DNA of 64,000 nt from Candidatus Gastranaerophilales bacterium. GTDB lineage: Bacteria; Cyanobacteriota; Vampirovibrionia; Gastranaerophilales; Gastranaerophilaceae. The position numbers were made by a program, and so were the translations under genes. Where the stretch lies: positions 1-64,000 of the forward strand of contig CALVAW010000005.1 of the NCBI GenBank assembly GCA_944325655.1, read 5' to 3'. Below are positions 1 to 64,000 of this stretch, in pieces (the stretch's first letter is position 1; every line of letters starts with the position of its first letter). The notes under the pieces are model-generated. The model was not told the origin of the DNA, made no database searches, and saw only the letters and a list, made by a program, of their open reading frames with translations.

Positions 1-29
1 TAAAAGCGACCAACCTATCTGCATATTTT

Positions 30-58
30 AATATATCCAAGACAAAAATCTATGTCAA
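30..58 (-). promoter_or_regulatory. Leftward sigma-70-type promoter near the window edge
   Basis: On the minus strand a consensus -35 TTGACA (plus-strand 53-58) is followed after exactly 17 bases by TATATT (30-35). Transcription would start near base 23 and leave the window to the left. An ATG at 24-22 on that strand opens a frame that stays open to the edge, too short to identify. It also lies 3' of the leftward XRE gene, so it could restart transcription for the next leftward gene. Confidence 0.45.
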
Positions 59-85
59 TAATAATTTTACAAAACTTATTTTGTT

Positions 86-346
86 TTACTCGCTTTTAAA
101 AAAATCTTTGGAAATTTCTCTGTCAAGCAATTTTCCAAATTCTTCAAAAGACATATCAAGAGCCTGTATAACTCTTGCAATTTTTGAAAAATAAGCTTGC
201 GAAGTCCCATTTTCAATAAGATTTAGAGAAGATTTTGCAATATCATTTTCGTAACAAAAAATTGTAAATTTTAATCCTTTTTCCAAACGTTTGTTTTTAA
301 GGATTTTACCTACGCTTTTATAAAATTTTTCGTCACTTGTTTGCAT
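86..346 (-). CDS. Small XRE-family helix-turn-helix regulator
   Basis: An 86-residue protein that is almost entirely one Cro/C1-type helix-turn-helix domain (about residues 10-75). The recognisable pieces are the VGKILKNKRLEKG first helix, the DIAKSSLNLIENG turn/recognition-helix region and a closing FEEFGKLLD helix. No sensor or oligomerisation domain is attached, so it is probably a stand-alone DNA-binding repressor or a phage/plasmid-style regulator. It is divergent from the prepilin gene at 429, and the space between them holds a 38-base perfect palindrome (370-407), a natural candidate for its own operator. A TATTAT box lies 7 bases before the ATG and no clear Shine-Dalgarno is visible. 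What it controls is unknown. Confidence 0.75.
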   Translation of the reverse strand: MQTSDEKFYKSVGKILKNKRLEKGLKFTIFCYENDIAKSSLNLIENGTSQAYFSKIARVIQALDMSFEEFGKLLDREISKDFFKSE

Positions 347-5744: not shown

Positions 5745-6575
5745 ATGACAATAATTGAAACTCCGAAACATTTGTACAGCGATACGCCACCTACAATACT
5801 AAGAAACAGAGAAGAAAAATTCAGAACGGCAAAAGATGTTCCTTTTTGGCTTTTTATTGCGGACTATGTTTTTCCAAAAATGATTGAAGCAAGATTTCAT
5901 TCTCTCATGTATAAAGGCATTGAAAATATTGAAAACAGAGATAAAACCAAAGCTATGCTTTTTTACACTAATCACAACAATTGGTGGGACGGAATATTGG
6001 GTTTTAACGTAGCAAGAAGAATAATGAAGGGACGTTTACGCCTGATGATTGAGGAGATGAACCGCTTTCCTCTTTTTCAATATATCGGATGTTTTCCAAT
6101 TAACAAAAAAACACCGCAAGATGCAATCAAAGCTCTAAGATATGCAGCAACAACACTAAAAGACCCTGATATAAATTTCTGGCTTTTTCCGCAAGGAATT
6201 ATAAGACCGCCACACTACAGACCCGAAGTCTTTCAGACAGGACTGGCATATTTAACAGAAAATGCAGTTAAAAATTTTGGCGGAATAAATCTCTGTCCGG
6301 TTGCGGTTAATTATACTTTTCTAAGACAAGACAAGCCTGAAATTGTCCTTGAATTCGGCAAAGTAACAACTTATCATGATTTTAAATATGACAGAAAGGA
6401 ATTTTGTCATAAACTTGAAAAAGAATTCGAAATTTTATGCGATAATCAACAAGCTCAAATTTCAAAAGGCGATTTCGAAGGATACAGATATCTCTTTAAA
6501 CAAAAACTCAGTTGGTGGCGAGACATCGAAAGAAGATTAAAAAATATAGGAATGAAAGACAAAATAGAACAATAA
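5745..6575 (+). CDS. PlsC-type lysophospholipid acyltransferase
   Basis: A 276-residue member of the glycerolipid acyltransferase family, which moves an acyl chain to lysophosphatidate or a related glycerol/lipid acceptor at the inner membrane. The HX4D catalytic motif is NHNNWWDG (His about 77, Asp about 82), and the substrate motif is FPQGIIRP (about 148-155), where most relatives have FPEG. No long membrane helix is obvious, so it is probably peripheral. An AGGA lies upstream of the ATG. Its stop codon overlaps the ATG of the following ROK kinase (TAATG), so the two are translationally coupled. The acceptor cannot be told from sequence; 1-acylglycerol-3-phosphate is only the default. Confidence 0.8.
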   Translation: MTIIETPKHLYSDTPPTILRNREEKFRTAKDVPFWLFIADYVFPKMIEARFHSLMYKGIENIENRDKTKAMLFYTNHNNWWDGILGFNVARRIMKGRLRLMIEEMNRFPLFQYIGCFPINKKTPQDAIKALRYAATTLKDPDINFWLFPQGIIRPPHYRPEVFQTGLAYLTENAVKNFGGINLCPVAVNYTFLRQDKPEIVLEFGKVTTYHDFKYDRKEFCHKLEKEFEILCDNQQAQISKGDFEGYRYLFKQKLSWWRDIERRLKNIGMKDKIEQ

Positions 6576-7537
6576 TGAAAAAGTATAACATTGGAATTGA
6601 TTTAGGCGGAACAAAAGTTCTTTGCGCAATTGTAGAAAATAATAAAAAAGCTGCTTCAAATCCAAAAATCCTATTTGAAGTCAAGAAAAAAACAAAAAAA
6701 GAAAAAGGAAACAAAAAAGTAACGGCAAAGCTTTTGGAAGCATTAGATGAACTGTTTGAAATTTCAAAAATTAAAAAAGAAGAAATTAACTCAATAGGAA
6801 TTGCGATAGCAGGTCAAATTGACAGAAAAAAAGGTGTTGTAATAAATGCATGCAATTTGGATTGCAAAAATCTTGAAATCAAAAAAATCTTAACTGAAAA
6901 ATATTCAATTAAAACCAAAGTATATAATGATGTGGAAGCAGCGGCATCCGGAGAACTTTTGTTTGGCGCCGGTCAAAACCATAAAAACATTTTATGTATT
7001 TTTATAGGCACAGGAATCGGTTCTTCAATTATAATAGATAAAAAAATATATAACGGAGCGTCAGGTTCTGCAGGCGAATTGGGTCATGTTATTGTTGATT
7101 TAAACGGAAGAAGCTGCTCATGCGGAGGAGTAGGGTGTCTTGAAGCATACGCATCCAGAAGCGCAATTGAAGCAAGAATACAAGGAGCTATAAAAAAAGG
7201 CAGAAAATCTATAATAACAGAATTAACCGAAGGGCAGAACATTTCTACCAAACATATAAAACAAGCACTTGATGCACATGATGATGTTGTAACTCAATAT
7301 GTAAACGAAGCGATAGAATATCTGTCAGGCGGAATTGCAAGCGCAATAAACTTTTTTAATCCCGAACTTGTCATTTTGGGCGGCGGTTTAATACAAGGAA
7401 TTGACGAAATATATAAAAAAACAGTTAAGCTAACTAAGGCTAAAGCTCTCAAAGTTGCAAGCGAAAATACCGAATTTAAAAAAGCAGAACTTGCAGATTA
7501 CTCAGGTGTCATCGGTGCTGCTCTAACGGAAGAATAA
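6575..7537 (+). CDS. ROK-family sugar kinase, probably glucokinase
   Basis: A 320-residue cytosolic kinase that probably phosphorylates glucose or an N-acetylated hexosamine with ATP. The N-terminus KKYNIGIDLGGTK is the phosphate-1 loop, IGTGIGSSI the second phosphate loop, and ELGHVIV followed by CSCGGVGCLE the ROK zinc-binding signature with the substrate-binding GHV. No N-terminal DNA-binding domain is present, so it is an enzyme, not a NagC-type repressor. I start it at 6575, where ATG overlaps the preceding TAA and gives the standard N-terminus; the longer open frame from 6512 would only add lysine/arginine-rich residues read out of frame with the acyltransferase. Mfd follows after one base. 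Confidence 0.88.
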   Translation: MKKYNIGIDLGGTKVLCAIVENNKKAASNPKILFEVKKKTKKEKGNKKVTAKLLEALDELFEISKIKKEEINSIGIAIAGQIDRKKGVVINACNLDCKNLEIKKILTEKYSIKTKVYNDVEAAASGELLFGAGQNHKNILCIFIGTGIGSSIIIDKKIYNGASGSAGELGHVIVDLNGRSCSCGGVGCLEAYASRSAIEARIQGAIKKGRKSIITELTEGQNISTKHIKQALDAHDDVVTQYVNEAIEYLSGGIASAINFFNPELVILGGGLIQGIDEIYKKTVKLTKAKALKVASENTEFKKAELADYSGVIGAALTEE

Positions 7538-56812: not shown

Positions 56813-58039
56813 TTAAAAATTATTCGGTTTATATACTTCAGGAGCAATTATTGCCGTCACTTTATGAGCTTCGAGAAGCTTTTGAGCCATTTCTGAAACA
56901 CTTTTTGCTTCAACTTTGTTTATTTCAGCAATAAACTCCTCATTATAATCCAAACCAAGCCCCATGATATAATTATAACCATACACGGAAGCAATTTGTG
57001 CATTATTTTGAGTAAAATATTTCATCCTTCCCGAAAGATTTTCTTTTGCTCCTTGTAATTCAATTTCATCAGGCGGAGTTTGCGCTAATTTCCTAAGTTC
57101 ATCCTCAAAACCCTTAAGAGATTTTTCAATATTTGTCGGTGCAGTACCAATATACATATTAAAAATACCGCTGTGTAATAATGTCTCATATTGACTTCTG
57201 ACAGTATATGCCAGCCCTTGCTTATCTCTTAAATTAACAAATAATCTGGAGGATAATCCGGAAGAACCCAAAATATTATTCAAAACCGCATATTTTGCAC
57301 ATTTATCGCTTTTAAATGATTCAATAATCCAACCTTGAATAATCTGAGCCTGTGAAGCATCATTTTTTGTTAACCATATATTTTTGTCTTCGTTTAATTC
57401 AAAAATATCTTCCACTTCATCTTTACTTTGACTTGTCGCCATAAAAGAATATTCACTCTTCAAATACTCCAAAACATCATTTTGATTAATATCTCCGACA
57501 ATTGAAACCGCTTTTTGAGAGTTTAAAATATCCTGATGAGCGCTAATTATATCATTCTTTGATATTTTATCTATATCTTCCAATATTCTTGTATGCACAG
57601 AGCCGTATGGATGAATAGGATACATATTTCTTATCAAAGCATCCGTAAGCTTCATTTTTGGATTATCTAAATCAGATATTATCTCGCCTTTAATTTTTAT
57701 TATTTCCTTTTCAAAATCATCGAATGTTGAATTTAACATTAACTCTTTAAAAAGCACCATTGCCTTTTTAAAATCTTCATTCAAAAAAATCAAACTTGCC
57801 TTTATATAATCCTGTTTAGCTTTAAAAGTAATATCGATACATTCCTCTTCAAATTCTTTTGATAATTCTACCGCACTATATTTTTTTGTTCCTTGCAATA
57901 ACAATCTTGCCAACAGCGCATTTACGCCAAAAAACTTTTCTTTTTTATCTGTTTTAAAAAAGAAATTTACCGCAATTCTCGGGGTCTTTGGTGTTTTTTC
58001 AAGAAGTACATTTATTCCGTCAACGTTATGATATTTCAT
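56813..58039 (-). CDS. M16 peptidase-family protein lacking the zinc motif
   Basis: A 408-residue member of the pitrilysin/insulinase family. Where active partners have HxxEH, this one reads FFGVNALLARLLLQGTKKY (about 40-58), so no zinc site is present. The rest matches the family: SVHTRILEDIDKISKNDI, SGLSSRLFVNLRDKQGLAYTV and a FDDFEKEI-type segment. Noncatalytic M16 subunits usually pair with an active one to form the peptide chamber, and the active gene is immediately upstream, overlapping by 14 bases. The start at 58039 follows AAGGAGA. Confidence 0.9.
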   Translation of the reverse strand: MKYHNVDGINVLLEKTPKTPRIAVNFFFKTDKKEKFFGVNALLARLLLQGTKKYSAVELSKEFEEECIDITFKAKQDYIKASLIFLNEDFKKAMVLFKELMLNSTFDDFEKEIIKIKGEIISDLDNPKMKLTDALIRNMYPIHPYGSVHTRILEDIDKISKNDIISAHQDILNSQKAVSIVGDINQNDVLEYLKSEYSFMATSQSKDEVEDIFELNEDKNIWLTKNDASQAQIIQGWIIESFKSDKCAKYAVLNNILGSSGLSSRLFVNLRDKQGLAYTVRSQYETLLHSGIFNMYIGTAPTNIEKSLKGFEDELRKLAQTPPDEIELQGAKENLSGRMKYFTQNNAQIASVYGYNYIMGLGLDYNEEFIAEINKVEAKSVSEMAQKLLEAHKVTAIIAPEVYKPNNF

Positions 58040-59375
58040 TAATTTTCTCCTTGGGTAAAAGCAAACTGATTGATACTTTATTCGGATTAAGATATTTCTT
58101 TGCAATTTCTTGTAAATATGAACAATTTATCTCTTCCAAAACCGACAAATAACGATTTGCAAGAGATATATCGTCACAAACAGTACTCCAATAACCTATT
58201 GCATCCGCAATATCTGCAACCATTTCCGAATCTTGAGCAAAATTAACTTTAGCACGTTTTTTTGCTTTTATTAATTCATTTTCTTCTATTTTTTCAAGCT
58301 TCTTCAAATGAGACTTAAGCTCTTGAATTACAATATCTTTTTTCGAGGCTTCGAAATTAGCTTCAATAAAGAAATTATCACCATCTTTAAATTGATAATG
58401 GCAGCTCTCAAGTTGATAATAATAAGGCTCTTGTTTACTTTCTATTAAATCCGTATATAACCTTGAACTTTTACCGTCCCCCAAGATTGTTGAAAGCAAA
58501 TCAAGCGCTATTGTTTCTTTTAAATTTTTTGCACTGTCTGCTAAAGCTCCAATCATAATATAGCCTGTATTAATTTCAGCATAATCAACAATTGTTCTTG
58601 GAGACTTAATTGTAATTTCTCTTATTCTCTCATCGGGTACACATTTTTCAAAATTAAAATCTTGCTTAAAAACAAAATTTTCTTGAATTAATTTAATGAC
58701 ATTTTCTTCGTCAAACTCTCCGACAACAATTGTAGTAATATTTGAAGGAATATAAAATGTTTTATAATATCTCAATATCTCCTTTTGGGAAATATTTGCA
58801 ATTATTTCTTTTGTACCTATTACTTCACGTTTATACGGATGCTTTTCATATAGAGAAGAATTAAGATTTTTATACACTTTTCGCCAATTATTATCTTCTC
58901 CCATTCTGATTTCTTCAATTACAACATATCTTTCCCTTTTTTCTTTTGGAGATTCGCCTTCAGGATTGAACTTTGGACCTATCTCTTCCGTAGGAAAAAT
59001 TGCATCCACCATCATATCTGCATGCATTTCAAGTGCTATATTGAAATGTTCCTTCGGAATATTTATGTAATAAAAAGTATAATCTTTCCAAGTTGCAGCA
59101 TTAATTATGCCGCCTTTTTGTTCCATTGTTCTGTCAAAACATCCGGCAGGGTATTTTGTCGTACCTTTAAAAAGCAAATGTTCTACAAAATGTGAAACGC
59201 CGTTATTTTCACTGTTTTCATTAATTGAACCTGTTTTAACCCATGAACTTATATTTATCATCGGGCTTTTCTTGTATGCTAAAACCGCTTTATGTCCGTT
59301 TTCAAAAGTATAAACACTGAGCGGTTTTTCCAAATAAGGATAATCTATGTATTCTTTTTTAATAATATCACTCAT
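58026..59375 (-). CDS. M16 zinc peptidase, catalytic subunit
   Basis: A 449-residue M16-family zinc peptidase. The inverted zinc motif is in GVSHFVEHLLFKGT (HFVEH near residue 65), with the second Glu about 80 residues later in the VVIEEIRMGED region. DGKSSRLYTDLIESKQEPYY is the family substrate/Arg-Tyr region. It lies six bases downstream of aroH and overlaps the noncatalytic partner by 14 bases. Such pairs degrade peptides or signal peptides; no signal peptide is present here, so it probably acts in the cytoplasm or is membrane-associated. Confidence 0.93.
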   Translation of the reverse strand: MSDIIKKEYIDYPYLEKPLSVYTFENGHKAVLAYKKSPMINISSWVKTGSINENSENNGVSHFVEHLLFKGTTKYPAGCFDRTMEQKGGIINAATWKDYTFYYINIPKEHFNIALEMHADMMVDAIFPTEEIGPKFNPEGESPKEKRERYVVIEEIRMGEDNNWRKVYKNLNSSLYEKHPYKREVIGTKEIIANISQKEILRYYKTFYIPSNITTIVVGEFDEENVIKLIQENFVFKQDFNFEKCVPDERIREITIKSPRTIVDYAEINTGYIMIGALADSAKNLKETIALDLLSTILGDGKSSRLYTDLIESKQEPYYYQLESCHYQFKDGDNFFIEANFEASKKDIVIQELKSHLKKLEKIEENELIKAKKRAKVNFAQDSEMVADIADAIGYWSTVCDDISLANRYLSVLEEINCSYLQEIAKKYLNPNKVSISLLLPKEKINEIS

Positions 59376-61408: not shown

Positions 61409-62506
61409 ATGACATTCAATTTAGATGATTTTTTAATAAAGTCACAAAAGGCTCAAGCATCTGATATACATATAAATTGCAATAAAATACCTTCTTTAAG
61501 AATAAACGGGGAAATTTATAAAATTTCAACAGACATAATAACTTATTCTGACATTCAGGCAATTCTTGAAAAAACACTGCCTTTTGAATATAAAGACACA
61601 ATAGAAGAAAAAAAAGATTTTGATTACATATACGAAATCGAAGGGGTATCCAGATACAGAGTCAATTATTGCAAAGACATATACCATGGTAAGTTCACCT
61701 TCAGGACAATTCCTTATTATATAAAATCCTTAGAAGAGCTTGCTTTACCGGAATATTTAAAAGAATTCACAAAATTCAACAACGGCATTGTTCTTGTCTC
61801 CGGTGCAACGGGTTCCGGAAAATCAACCACCCTTGCAAGCATGATAGAAATAATCAACCAAACCAGAAAAAATCATGTGGTAACAATTGAAGACCCCGTA
61901 GAATTTATATACGAAGATAAAAAATCTATAATCACCCAAAGAACTCTCGATATAGACGTTAAAGATTTTAAAACCGGAATAAAATATGCACTCAGACAAG
62001 ACCCTGACGTTATTCTTGTCGGAGAAATACGCGATAAAGACACCCTTTTAAGTGCCATACAAGCTTCCGAAACAGGGCATCTGGTCTTTTCAACCGTCCA
62101 CACAAACGGAACAATTCCTTCAATTAACCGCCTGAAAGGGTTTATAGAAGAATACGGTCAAGGTCAATTTATGAAAAGACTTGCAAATTGCATCAGAGGA
62201 ATAGTGCATCAACAGCTTGTTCCAACTACAAACAACGGCGCACTTACTCCTGCAGTCGAAATTTTAACTTTTACTTCAACTGTTATAGATTATGTAAAAG
62301 ACGGAAAATTCAATGAAATATACCATTTAATGCAAATGAGTAAGCAACCTAATTTGACAACAATGAATACATCGTTATTTGACTTATATGAAAAAGGCAT
62401 AATAACAAAAGAGGTAGCGCTTGAATACAGCCTTGAGAAAGTCGAAATGGACCAAATGCTAAGAGGTATTTACAGAAATAATGTTGTAGATGAAACAATT
62501 TTATAA
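61409..62506 (+). CDS. pilT: Type IV pilus retraction ATPase, PilT-like
   Basis: A hexameric cytoplasmic ATPase that would drive pilus retraction or twitching. The 365-residue protein has an N-terminal PAS-like domain (about 1-115, with ASDIHIN at the start), Walker A VSGATGSGKSTT (about 131-142), the Asp box VTIEDPVEFIY, Walker B DVILVGEIRD and the His box GHLVFSTVHTNGT, followed by the C-terminal helical domain. This order matches PilT rather than PilB, which has a longer N-terminal domain and tetracysteine zinc site. AAGGAG precedes the ATG. Prepilin-like protein is at 429. The AIRNEG motif of classic PilT is not obvious. Confidence 0.88.
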   Translation: MTFNLDDFLIKSQKAQASDIHINCNKIPSLRINGEIYKISTDIITYSDIQAILEKTLPFEYKDTIEEKKDFDYIYEIEGVSRYRVNYCKDIYHGKFTFRTIPYYIKSLEELALPEYLKEFTKFNNGIVLVSGATGSGKSTTLASMIEIINQTRKNHVVTIEDPVEFIYEDKKSIITQRTLDIDVKDFKTGIKYALRQDPDVILVGEIRDKDTLLSAIQASETGHLVFSTVHTNGTIPSINRLKGFIEEYGQGQFMKRLANCIRGIVHQQLVPTTNNGALTPAVEILTFTSTVIDYVKDGKFNEIYHLMQMSKQPNLTTMNTSLFDLYEKGIITKEVALEYSLEKVEMDQMLRGIYRNNVVDETIL

Positions 62507-62539
62507 TATACGGTTATAACACAATAAGGAGTAGAAAAT

Positions 62540-63916
62540 ATGACGCCATTTCCGGAATCAGAAATAATGACAATTAAAAGACTTGAAGTTGCTTTGAGAA
62601 AAACCGACTATAAACTCTTAAAAGACGGAGCATATAAACTGCATGAAAAATATCACAGCGGGCATAAATTCGAATATTTAGATTTACTGAAGGAAATTTT
62701 TATGGAAGTTTCAAATAACGCTTCAATTCCGCAAGACATAAAAGACCTATTAACCCCCACAATAGAAGATATCTTATCAGAGCGAGGAATAAACGCAGAC
62801 ACTTCTACTTCACCTTATGAAGCATTAAATCAAAACAGGGTTTCAAGTTTAACTTCTCTGAGCTACAACTCAAACAATGTTCAAGAAAAAGAAGTGCAAC
62901 AACCTGAAGAACAAAAAATGAGTGCTTTTGATGCTTTTAGCGCAAAAACAGTGCAAACAAGTTATGAACCGAATTTTGAAAATTCATTTGAAACAAAACC
63001 TTTTGAAGAATTTTCAACACCAACAATTTCAACAACAGAAAATTTTTCTCAAGAACATAACTCCTATGAAGAAAACTCCGAAAATGAAACACAACAAATT
63101 CAACAAGACACTCAACAAAACCAACATGAAAACATTAATAAAGAAAATACTCAATATGAACAAATGCCGATAAAAGCAAAAACTGTTGCAATATATTACG
63201 GACAGGATAACTCAAACGAAAAAGCAAAAAACATTATAAAATACAGGGAATTGATTTCAAAATCCCAAAACAGTGAAATGAAAGAAGTATTAAGACTCCT
63301 ATGCGAGATAAATACCCAAACAAACACAAATGTATCCGAGTTAAAAAATCTTTTGGAACAATTAAAAACAACCTCACACAAAATAAACTTAATTACAAAT
63401 TCATCAAGCAAAAATTTAATTGAACTTTTTGAAAAAAATGAACTTTCATATTCTCTTATGGGAAAAAACGAATCAGCTCAAACGAAGCTCATTCCTCTGT
63501 TTGGTCTTTCGAACTTGTTTGTTTGCAACGATTGCAAAGAAAAATATTTAAATAAAAACAACGAAATAACATCAATTGTTTTAGAATGTCCAAAATGCAA
63601 AAATCCAATGTTCGCCGATTTTTATGCCAATACATATAATTGCGAACTTAATTTAGATTATTACAATGAAGCTCTTATTTCACTTGCTAATTCAGATGTT
63701 TGGTTTATAGTGCATCCGAATACAGACGAAAAAACAACGGCAAATCTACTCTTAAGCGCATTAAAATTAAATAATAAAGTAGAAGACATATTTATTTTAG
63801 ACAAAGATATTAACGTCAGAGAAAATTTCAGAAGCTTATTTGCTTCTATAAATCAATCTGCAAGAATTAATATACAAATGAGTGCTTTGGAAGATTTTTT
63901 AAATTTGGTGAGATAA
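62540..63916 (+). CDS. Protein with Gln/Asn-rich linker and C-terminal zinc ribbon, possibly sirtuin-related
   Basis: A 458-residue protein directly after pilT. The N-terminal about 80 residues are helical (KDGAYKLHEKYHSGHKFEY). About 110-210 are low-complexity, rich in Gln, Asn, Glu, Ser and Thr. About 235-300 are helical with a region that suits a Rossmann-like fold, and at 329-353 two cysteine pairs, CNDC and CPKC, form a zinc site, followed by YNEALISLANSDVWFIVHPNT and ILDKD. This order, a short loop after LFGLSNLFVC, a four-Cys zinc site, then alternating beta/helix, resembles the small zinc domain and C-terminal Rossmann half of sirtuins, but I see no GAGxS NAD motif. The function is unknown; position suggests a pilus or surface-motility connection. 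AAGGAG precedes the ATG. Confidence 0.6.
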   Translation: MTPFPESEIMTIKRLEVALRKTDYKLLKDGAYKLHEKYHSGHKFEYLDLLKEIFMEVSNNASIPQDIKDLLTPTIEDILSERGINADTSTSPYEALNQNRVSSLTSLSYNSNNVQEKEVQQPEEQKMSAFDAFSAKTVQTSYEPNFENSFETKPFEEFSTPTISTTENFSQEHNSYEENSENETQQIQQDTQQNQHENINKENTQYEQMPIKAKTVAIYYGQDNSNEKAKNIIKYRELISKSQNSEMKEVLRLLCEINTQTNTNVSELKNLLEQLKTTSHKINLITNSSSKNLIELFEKNELSYSLMGKNESAQTKLIPLFGLSNLFVCNDCKEKYLNKNNEITSIVLECPKCKNPMFADFYANTYNCELNLDYYNEALISLANSDVWFIVHPNTDEKTTANLLLSALKLNNKVEDIFILDKDINVRENFRSLFASINQSARINIQMSALEDFLNLVR

Positions 63917-64000
63917 TTGAGAAAAAATTTTACGACAGAAGCAATAAATTTAAAAAATTATCCCTTAAATGATAATGATAACATTGTTATAATGTTTTCC
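63917..64000 (+). CDS. recO: DNA repair protein RecO, N-terminal fragment
   Basis: The frame opens at TTG 63917, soon after GGTGAG, and runs to the window edge, giving 28 residues with TTEAINLKNYPLNDNDNIV. This closely follows the usual RecO beginning (TEAIVLKxxxxxESDxIVxLFT), the OB-fold domain that anneals DNA with RecF and RecR. The gene is cut by the window edge. Confidence 0.65.
   Translation, partial: MRKNFTTEAINLKNYPLNDNDNIVIMFS

Follow-up and report, generated by a model that had tools for sequence, protein, structure and literature searches.

A predicted sirtuin-fold pseudoenzyme encoded beside a pilT paralogue in Candidatus Gastranaerophilales

Directly downstream of a pilT paralogue in Candidatus Gastranaerophilales, a group of gut relatives of cyanobacteria, lies a gene whose product, here called X, is predicted to be a sirtuin-fold pseudoenzyme rather than a functional sirtuin. 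Because the sirtuin shape comes without the catalytic motifs, X is probably a regulator or adaptor and not an enzyme. Within the window, the whole stretch of 64,000 nucleotides analysed here, X occupies positions 62540–63916 of the + strand as a 458-residue open reading frame (ORF) with an ATG start. A probable ribosome-binding site, AAGGAG (62526–62531, + strand), is positioned 8 bases 5′ of this ATG, and 33 bases separate the ATG from the end of the preceding pilT ORF (61409–62506, + strand), which encodes a paralogue of the retraction-ATPase family (PilT2; Pfam T2SSE, E 4e-45) with the Walker A sequence GATGSGKST. On the 3′ side, a recO-like gene (63917–64000, + strand) abuts the X stop codon with a gap of 0 and is cut by the window end; the name recO is our reading of the sequence and draws on a 257-aa ORF at 5918–6691 of locus L040. 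X is more than a chance ORF, since it has relatives in many genomes and retains four cysteines in all 43 family members compared.

X is divided into three regions. The N-terminal domain (residues 1–83; 62540–62788, + strand), delimited by the AlphaFold2 model and the alignment, comprises helices at residues 8–20, 24–39, 47–59 and 65–81, with pLDDT of 90–93 in blocks spanning residues 11–80. It is followed by a linker (residues 84–213; 62789–63178, + strand) that is rich in Gln, Glu, Ser and Thr and predicted from pLDDT and composition to be disordered, with block means of 32–48 over residues 91–210, and by the C-terminal sirtuin-fold domain (residues 214–458; 63179–63913, + strand), which is supported by AlphaFold2, Foldseek and VIA. 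An earlier note, made from the sequence, had described a 458-residue protein 33 bases after pilT, with CNDC and CPKC motifs and a disordered, Gln/Asn-rich linker. The ORF is confirmed at 62540–63916, the motifs are found as Cys329/Cys332 and Cys350/Cys353, and residues 90–127 and 136–210 of the linker have pLDDT below 50. The compositional label is half right: the linker contains 12.3% Q, 14.6% E, 12.3% S, 10.0% T and 12.3% N, so that the glutamine part stands, while the asparagine part does not, its share lying no higher than the 13.5% of the folded C-terminal part.

Among the 43 members, mean pairwise identity amounts to 59% in residues 1–83, 22.5% in 84–213 and 35% in 214–458, making the N-terminal domain the best conserved region of X. 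Residues E6, E8, K13, R14, V17, A18, L26 and K33 are identical in 43/43 members, five of them being charged. With this domain as query, 32 of the 289 genomes of the class give a match at E ≤ 0.01; the clear matches (30 genomes, E 1.3e-32 or better) lie in genomes that also yielded X, with equal frame lengths, and are confined to X throughout the 289 genomes. Two weak matches in the same search (E 0.004 and 0.009) were regarded as chance, as were profile matches of the N-terminal domain to de novo TIM barrels (E 0.0041) and, over 40 residues, to DCN1-like proteins (E 0.0095).

The C-terminal domain is predicted to adopt the sirtuin architecture, with a Rossmann-like large domain and a four-cysteine small domain, on the strength of four converging lines: the structure model, a viral library, family profiles and hhalign. 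The AlphaFold2 model of residues 206–458, built from 30 sequences, reaches a pLDDT of 88.9 and a pTM of 0.87. All 50 PDB matches listed by Foldseek for this model are sirtuins or entries with a SIR2 domain, SIR2/HerA entries being taken as SIR2 chains. Among the matches listed, Sir2Tm ranks first (E 1.1e-7, probability 1.00), the alignments span the whole domain with 253–343 columns, TM-scores by model length range from 0.46 to 0.60, and identities range from 8 to 17%. The best VIA match is SIRT5 (Z 14.0, rmsd 3.5, 206 residues aligned, model range 6..250), and the model of full-length X gives a similar list of sirtuin type in the structure search. In the viral library, two matches fall at E ≤ 0.001, both annotated as sirtuins, and the next follows at 7e-3.

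The sequence profiles point to a kinship to sirtuins that is remote. The homologue in genome G065 aligns with positions 94–153 of Pfam SIR2, the zinc module, at E 6.6e-4 and 20.1 bits, which is the best score seen in the family and lies under the curated cut-off of 24 bits. In hmmscan against Pfam, SIR2 is matched by four of 21 members (best 0.002), fewer than match HypA (9/21, best 0.021) or Zn_ribbon_8 (5/21, best 0.0047), and the NCBIfam deacylase model NF001753 is matched by 10/21 at E ≤ 1 (best 5.1e-4). Against eight sirtuins of the phylum, hhalign returns a probability of 62% (P 7.8e-5), with further runs at 77% (P 2.1e-5) and 58% (P 9.8e-5); these alignments cover only the zinc module and the strands that follow it, with the sirtuin site matched by C329/C332 and C350/C353. 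Searched against PDB sequences, the X profile again finds Sir2Tm as its best match, short of significance (E 0.034). Taken singly, the window protein finds no significant match in Pfam or among PDB sequences, SIR2 being unlisted at E ≤ 10, and in PHROGs X and one relative give weak matches (best E 0.025) and another relative gives none. A phmmer match to acetyl-CoA carboxylase beta (E 0.51) was rejected as its alignment is restricted to the zinc-ribbon region, and HAD, abhydrolase, HypA and zinc-ribbon identities for X were set aside with their weak matches. The guess of a degenerate sirtuin made in the earlier note is thus borne out by the resemblance of the modelled domain to sirtuins and by the weak SIR2 match of a remote relative, and the structure search it had proposed returns a sirtuin fold and no clear non-sirtuin fold.

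The presumed zinc module (63524–63598, + strand) is formed by Cys329 and Cys332 (63524–63535) together with Cys350 and Cys353 (63587–63598), in a CxxC...CxxC arrangement. Because all four cysteines are present in 43/43 members, X presumably binds zinc; the strict pattern itself fits only one of the eight sirtuins used as a yardstick. Across the C-terminal domain, the columns identical in 43/43 members are limited to G322, C329, C332, C350, C353, W388 and P393, leaving the domain with no invariant acid, base or histidine.

The catalytic motifs of sirtuins are missing. The position of the GAGxS loop after the first strand, as placed by strand order, would be taken by GQDNS (residues 221–225; 63200–63214, + strand), which is variable in the family. 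GAG is found in the last 290 residues of 0/43 members, in keeping with the absence of GAGxS that had been claimed for the window protein and that extends to 43/43. The position of the catalytic His-Gly pair, assigned by hhalign column match, is occupied by Phe321-Gly322 (63500–63505, + strand). At the histidine column His occurs in 0/43 members (F in 28, L in 6, G in 6, and N, Y and V in one each), the glycine after it is kept in 43/43, and an HG string stands elsewhere in two members, away from the aligned column. Over the TQNxD columns 286–290, Thr is present in 40/43 members, Gln287 in 0/43 and Asp290 in 1/43; elsewhere in the last 290 residues, QN[IVL]D occurs in one member and TQN in six. 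Within the same 290 residues G[ST]S, representing the GTS motif, is found in 0/43, and the invariant Pro393 lies near its expected place. All eight yardstick sirtuins carry all four motifs, GAGxS included, a control that is partly circular because they were picked beforehand from ORFs filtered by GAG/QN-D strings; L046, excluded by this filter, has GAGAG, and the sirtuin loci omitted from the yardstick alignment are L042, L043, L044, L046 and L130. With GAGxS, TQNxD, the catalytic histidine and GTS all absent from the aligned family, NAD-dependent deacylase activity of X is very unlikely.

Conservation around the presumed former active site is modestly raised. Residues Y220, T286, S288, S290, P393 and K422 are well conserved, lie at or just past strand ends and, by analogy with sirtuins, would line the NAD/peptide crevice. 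Conservation of the crevice loops, which were chosen by hand, averages 0.57 vs 0.45 for the rest (one-sided p 0.011), with the strands higher at 0.61. Such a crevice would leave room for a changed ligand and is no proof of one.

Other sirtuin-like proteins of these genomes depart from the canonical form in different ways. The small sirtuins at L043 1462–2025 (genome G015, same genus) and L042 1480–2037 (G070), of 187 and 185 aa, contain GAGIS, MNVD and HG and have zero cysteines, hence no zinc ribbon, so that they form a mirror image of X, in which the ribbon is kept and the motifs are gone. A 169-aa sirtuin-like ORF at L044 352–861 (G082) carries ENLD, lacks the zinc cysteines and scores above the SIR2 cut-off (30.9 bits), and a 171-aa ORF at L130 1429–1944 (G103), with GAGVS and TTNYD, falls under that cut-off and is apparently a different kind of SIR2 protein.

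The distribution of X is patchy. With the window protein as query, 36/97 genomes give a match at E ≤ 0.001, its own genome counted; X is present in 28/28 genomes of the window's genus, while 28/30 from the family's other genera show no match. The family profile detects X in 36/241 genomes of the order and in 9/50 genera. The alignment of 43 members was obtained by reducing 96 profile matches to one per genome, with removal of sequences under 360 aa (the cut copy of G009) and of repeated sequences. Linkage was scored in 43 of the 47 carriers seen, leaving out G009 (contig end), G150, G215 and G239. Related contigs of named origin are mostly labelled Candidatus Gastranaerophilales, the others uncultured bacterium or similar, and the closest named relative of the window's genome shares 70% identity in the best segment.

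The pairing of X with pilT, whose conservation the earlier note had proposed to check, holds in most carriers: X lies directly after pilT in 40/43 genomes with enough upstream DNA, namely in 27/27 of the window's genus and 13/16 outside it, with seven genera linked. Where the two genes are linked (40 genomes), they lie between −20 and 34 bases apart, −20 reflecting an upstream in-frame start under the ORF rule. Named contigs, largely of the same species, contribute 29 loci, with 27 linked and two (L073 and L074) unlinked. The pair is also kept in families f7 and f4, though recO is not next to it there. In three genomes of family f3 (G065, G074 and G079) X lies away from pilT, and at the corresponding loci L031, L034 and L035 it adjoins a gene that we read as a PlsC-type acyltransferase-like gene. 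Of the 16 fetched genomes without X, 11 have a gene read as recO-like immediately after the second pilT and five have a different gene there; the 11 cases point to a common layout pilT2-(X)-recO in which X is present or absent as a unit.

PilT2 itself does not depend on X. A match to TIGR01420 is found in 97/97 genomes and exceeds the cut-off in 89/97, so that a lack of PilT does not account for the lack of X. At least 16 genomes lacking X, the 16 fetched, contain a second PilT-type gene, and with many relatives having a second PilT and no X, PilT2 does not need X. The window's genome has its other PilT-type gene on contig C3, set apart from PilT2 in the tree, and PilB-type and PilC-type genes on contig C18. 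The PilT tree, which includes 31 of the 40 linked genomes, 16 genomes lacking X and two unlinked ones and carries a long-branch warning, places 28/31 X-linked sequences in a single strongly supported clade and three, from f7 and f4, elsewhere. The linked PilT2 sequences displayed in the alignment retain the Walker A pattern. NLIRE, part of the PilT motif called AIRNLIRE, is absent from the window PilT2 (61409–62506) and kept in the other PilT (L121 2603–3694); it is also absent from second PilTs lacking X in the same alignment. Mirror-tree comparison over 35 loci gives raw correlations of 0.89–0.93 between X distances and those of PilT2 or RecO, and the partial values (N-terminal domain with PilT2 0.46 and with RecO 0.25; C-terminal domain with PilT2 0.38 and with RecO 0.46) single out no partner.

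These observations can be read in several ways. That X is a sirtuin-fold pseudoenzyme regulating the adjoining pilus motor is a proposition for which we hold the chances to be even. It is favoured by the predicted fold, the loss of the catalytic motifs, the linkage to pilT, the conservation of an N-terminal domain clearly matched only in X across the 289 genomes, and the PilB- and PilC-type genes of the genome. Against it weigh the remoteness of the kinship to sirtuins, the modest excess of crevice conservation, the many relatives whose second PilT has no X, and the three f3 genomes with X apart from pilT, which bear equally on the adaptor between retraction motor and signal that the earlier note had thought possible. 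A substantial possibility, although short of even, is that the pseudoenzyme has a role unrelated to pili and has passively inherited its pilT2-X-recO operon neighbourhood. The acyltransferase-like neighbour in the three f3 genomes fits passive inheritance, as does the direct succession of pilT2 and the recO-like gene in 11/16 genomes lacking X, since X may have entered or left an existing operon, and the rates of X track RecO as well as PilT2. Linkage in seven carrier genera argues against it, as do the persistence of the pilT-X pair in f7 and f4 with recO not next and the short spacing across all 40 linked genomes.

Two further readings concern the protein rather than its neighbourhood. X might be an active NAD-dependent enzyme with diverged motifs, a deacylase, ADP-ribosyltransferase or NADase, for example one that deacetylates PilT. 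The predicted fold would suit such an enzyme, a review table reports acetylation of Neisseria gonorrhoeae PilT at Lys117 (PMC6640162), and the window's genome, having no Pfam SIR2 match, shows no other evident deacylase of that family; this reading is nonetheless quite improbable, with GAGxS, GTS and the catalytic-column histidine absent in 43/43 members and the invariant columns of the domain limited to the four cysteines, Gly322, Trp388 and Pro393. Least credible, to the point of being hardly tenable, is an origin unrelated to sirtuins, with X as another Rossmann-like protein bearing a zinc ribbon. It would accord with the lack of a significant family or PDB match for the window protein alone, the weak matches to zinc-ribbon families and the profile alignments that reach only the zinc half, whereas both Foldseek (253–343 columns in the 50 matches listed) and VIA (6..250) cover the whole domain, the sequence profiles favour sirtuins across the zinc module, and a gap in the viral library separates two sirtuins from all else.

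For the regulation of the motor by X, a mechanism can be outlined. The docking site of the N-terminal domain would be PilT2 or the pilus platform engaged by PilT2, and the long flexible linker would give the dead sirtuin domain reach to a ligand or partner. The old NAD/peptide crevice would hold, with no turnover, either an altered ligand or a lysine carrying an acyl group, and ligand binding would then raise or lower the use of PilT2 in retraction. A more specific version, which we regard as doubtful, has the dead sirtuin recruited as a regulatory subunit of PilT2 that reads a metabolite or the acylation of the motor and signals through the four-helix docking domain; the acetylation listed for PilT of N. 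gonorrhoeae at Lys117 (review table, PMC6640162) makes an acyl-lysine reader on the motor conceivable. The fold, the loss of motifs and the linkage are computational results, and from them we infer the partner, the ligand and the effect.

With the sirtuins CobB, Sir2Tm and SIRT5 (Pfam SIR2, PF02146), X shares the fold, the placement of CxxC...CxxC and the glycine after the catalytic-His position. It differs from them in lacking GAGxS, GTS, the aligned TQNxD and the catalytic histidine (43/43), in adding a four-helix N-terminal domain and a long linker, and in the location of its gene beside pilT. The SIR2-HerA anti-phage complexes (8w9l and 8wld) are a structural match as well (VIA Z 12.8–12.9). 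HerA and PilT are both hexameric P-loop ATPases, and the likeness is one of arrangement only, a SIR2-fold protein with a P-loop ATPase; unlike SIR2-HerA, X has lost the catalytic motifs and its neighbour is PilT-like. In PADLOC, X and two relatives match 0 defence families at E ≤ 1, and the P-loop region of PilT2 matches mad8 (4.6e-7) and HerA models (2.8e-4 or weaker).

To our knowledge, PilT itself has few known regulators. A review passage describes many cyanobacteria as having a second PilT that may resemble PilU, and the PilB motor as a hub for cyanobacterial proteins (PMC12288463). Cyanobacterial PilT2 is described there with a proline-rich N-terminus, which the window PilT lacks, and the passage on it names no sirtuin (PMC12288463). 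A review states that sirtuins are missing from the majority of Cyanobacteria/Melainabacteria species (PMC8603916), and the window's genome, where Pfam SIR2 finds no match, fits this statement. Neither a pilT with a sirtuin partner nor a dead sirtuin beside a pilus motor was met among the papers listed from the open-licence literature, from which the printed literature may differ, and the phrase "catalytically inactive sirtuin" had no match in the open-licence literature. The fold is thus already known, and the pairing of a dead sirtuin with a pilus motor was not met in the portion of the literature searched. Work on sirtuins treats them as enzymes, and a bacterial lineage in which the fold persists after its chemistry has been lost would reveal the other uses of that fold.

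Elsewhere in the window, at 56813–59375 (− strand), two neighbouring ORFs with overlapping frames, which we take to be M16-like peptidases, resemble active/inactive M16 pairs: one contains HFVEH, of the HxxEH type, and the other seemingly has no such motif.
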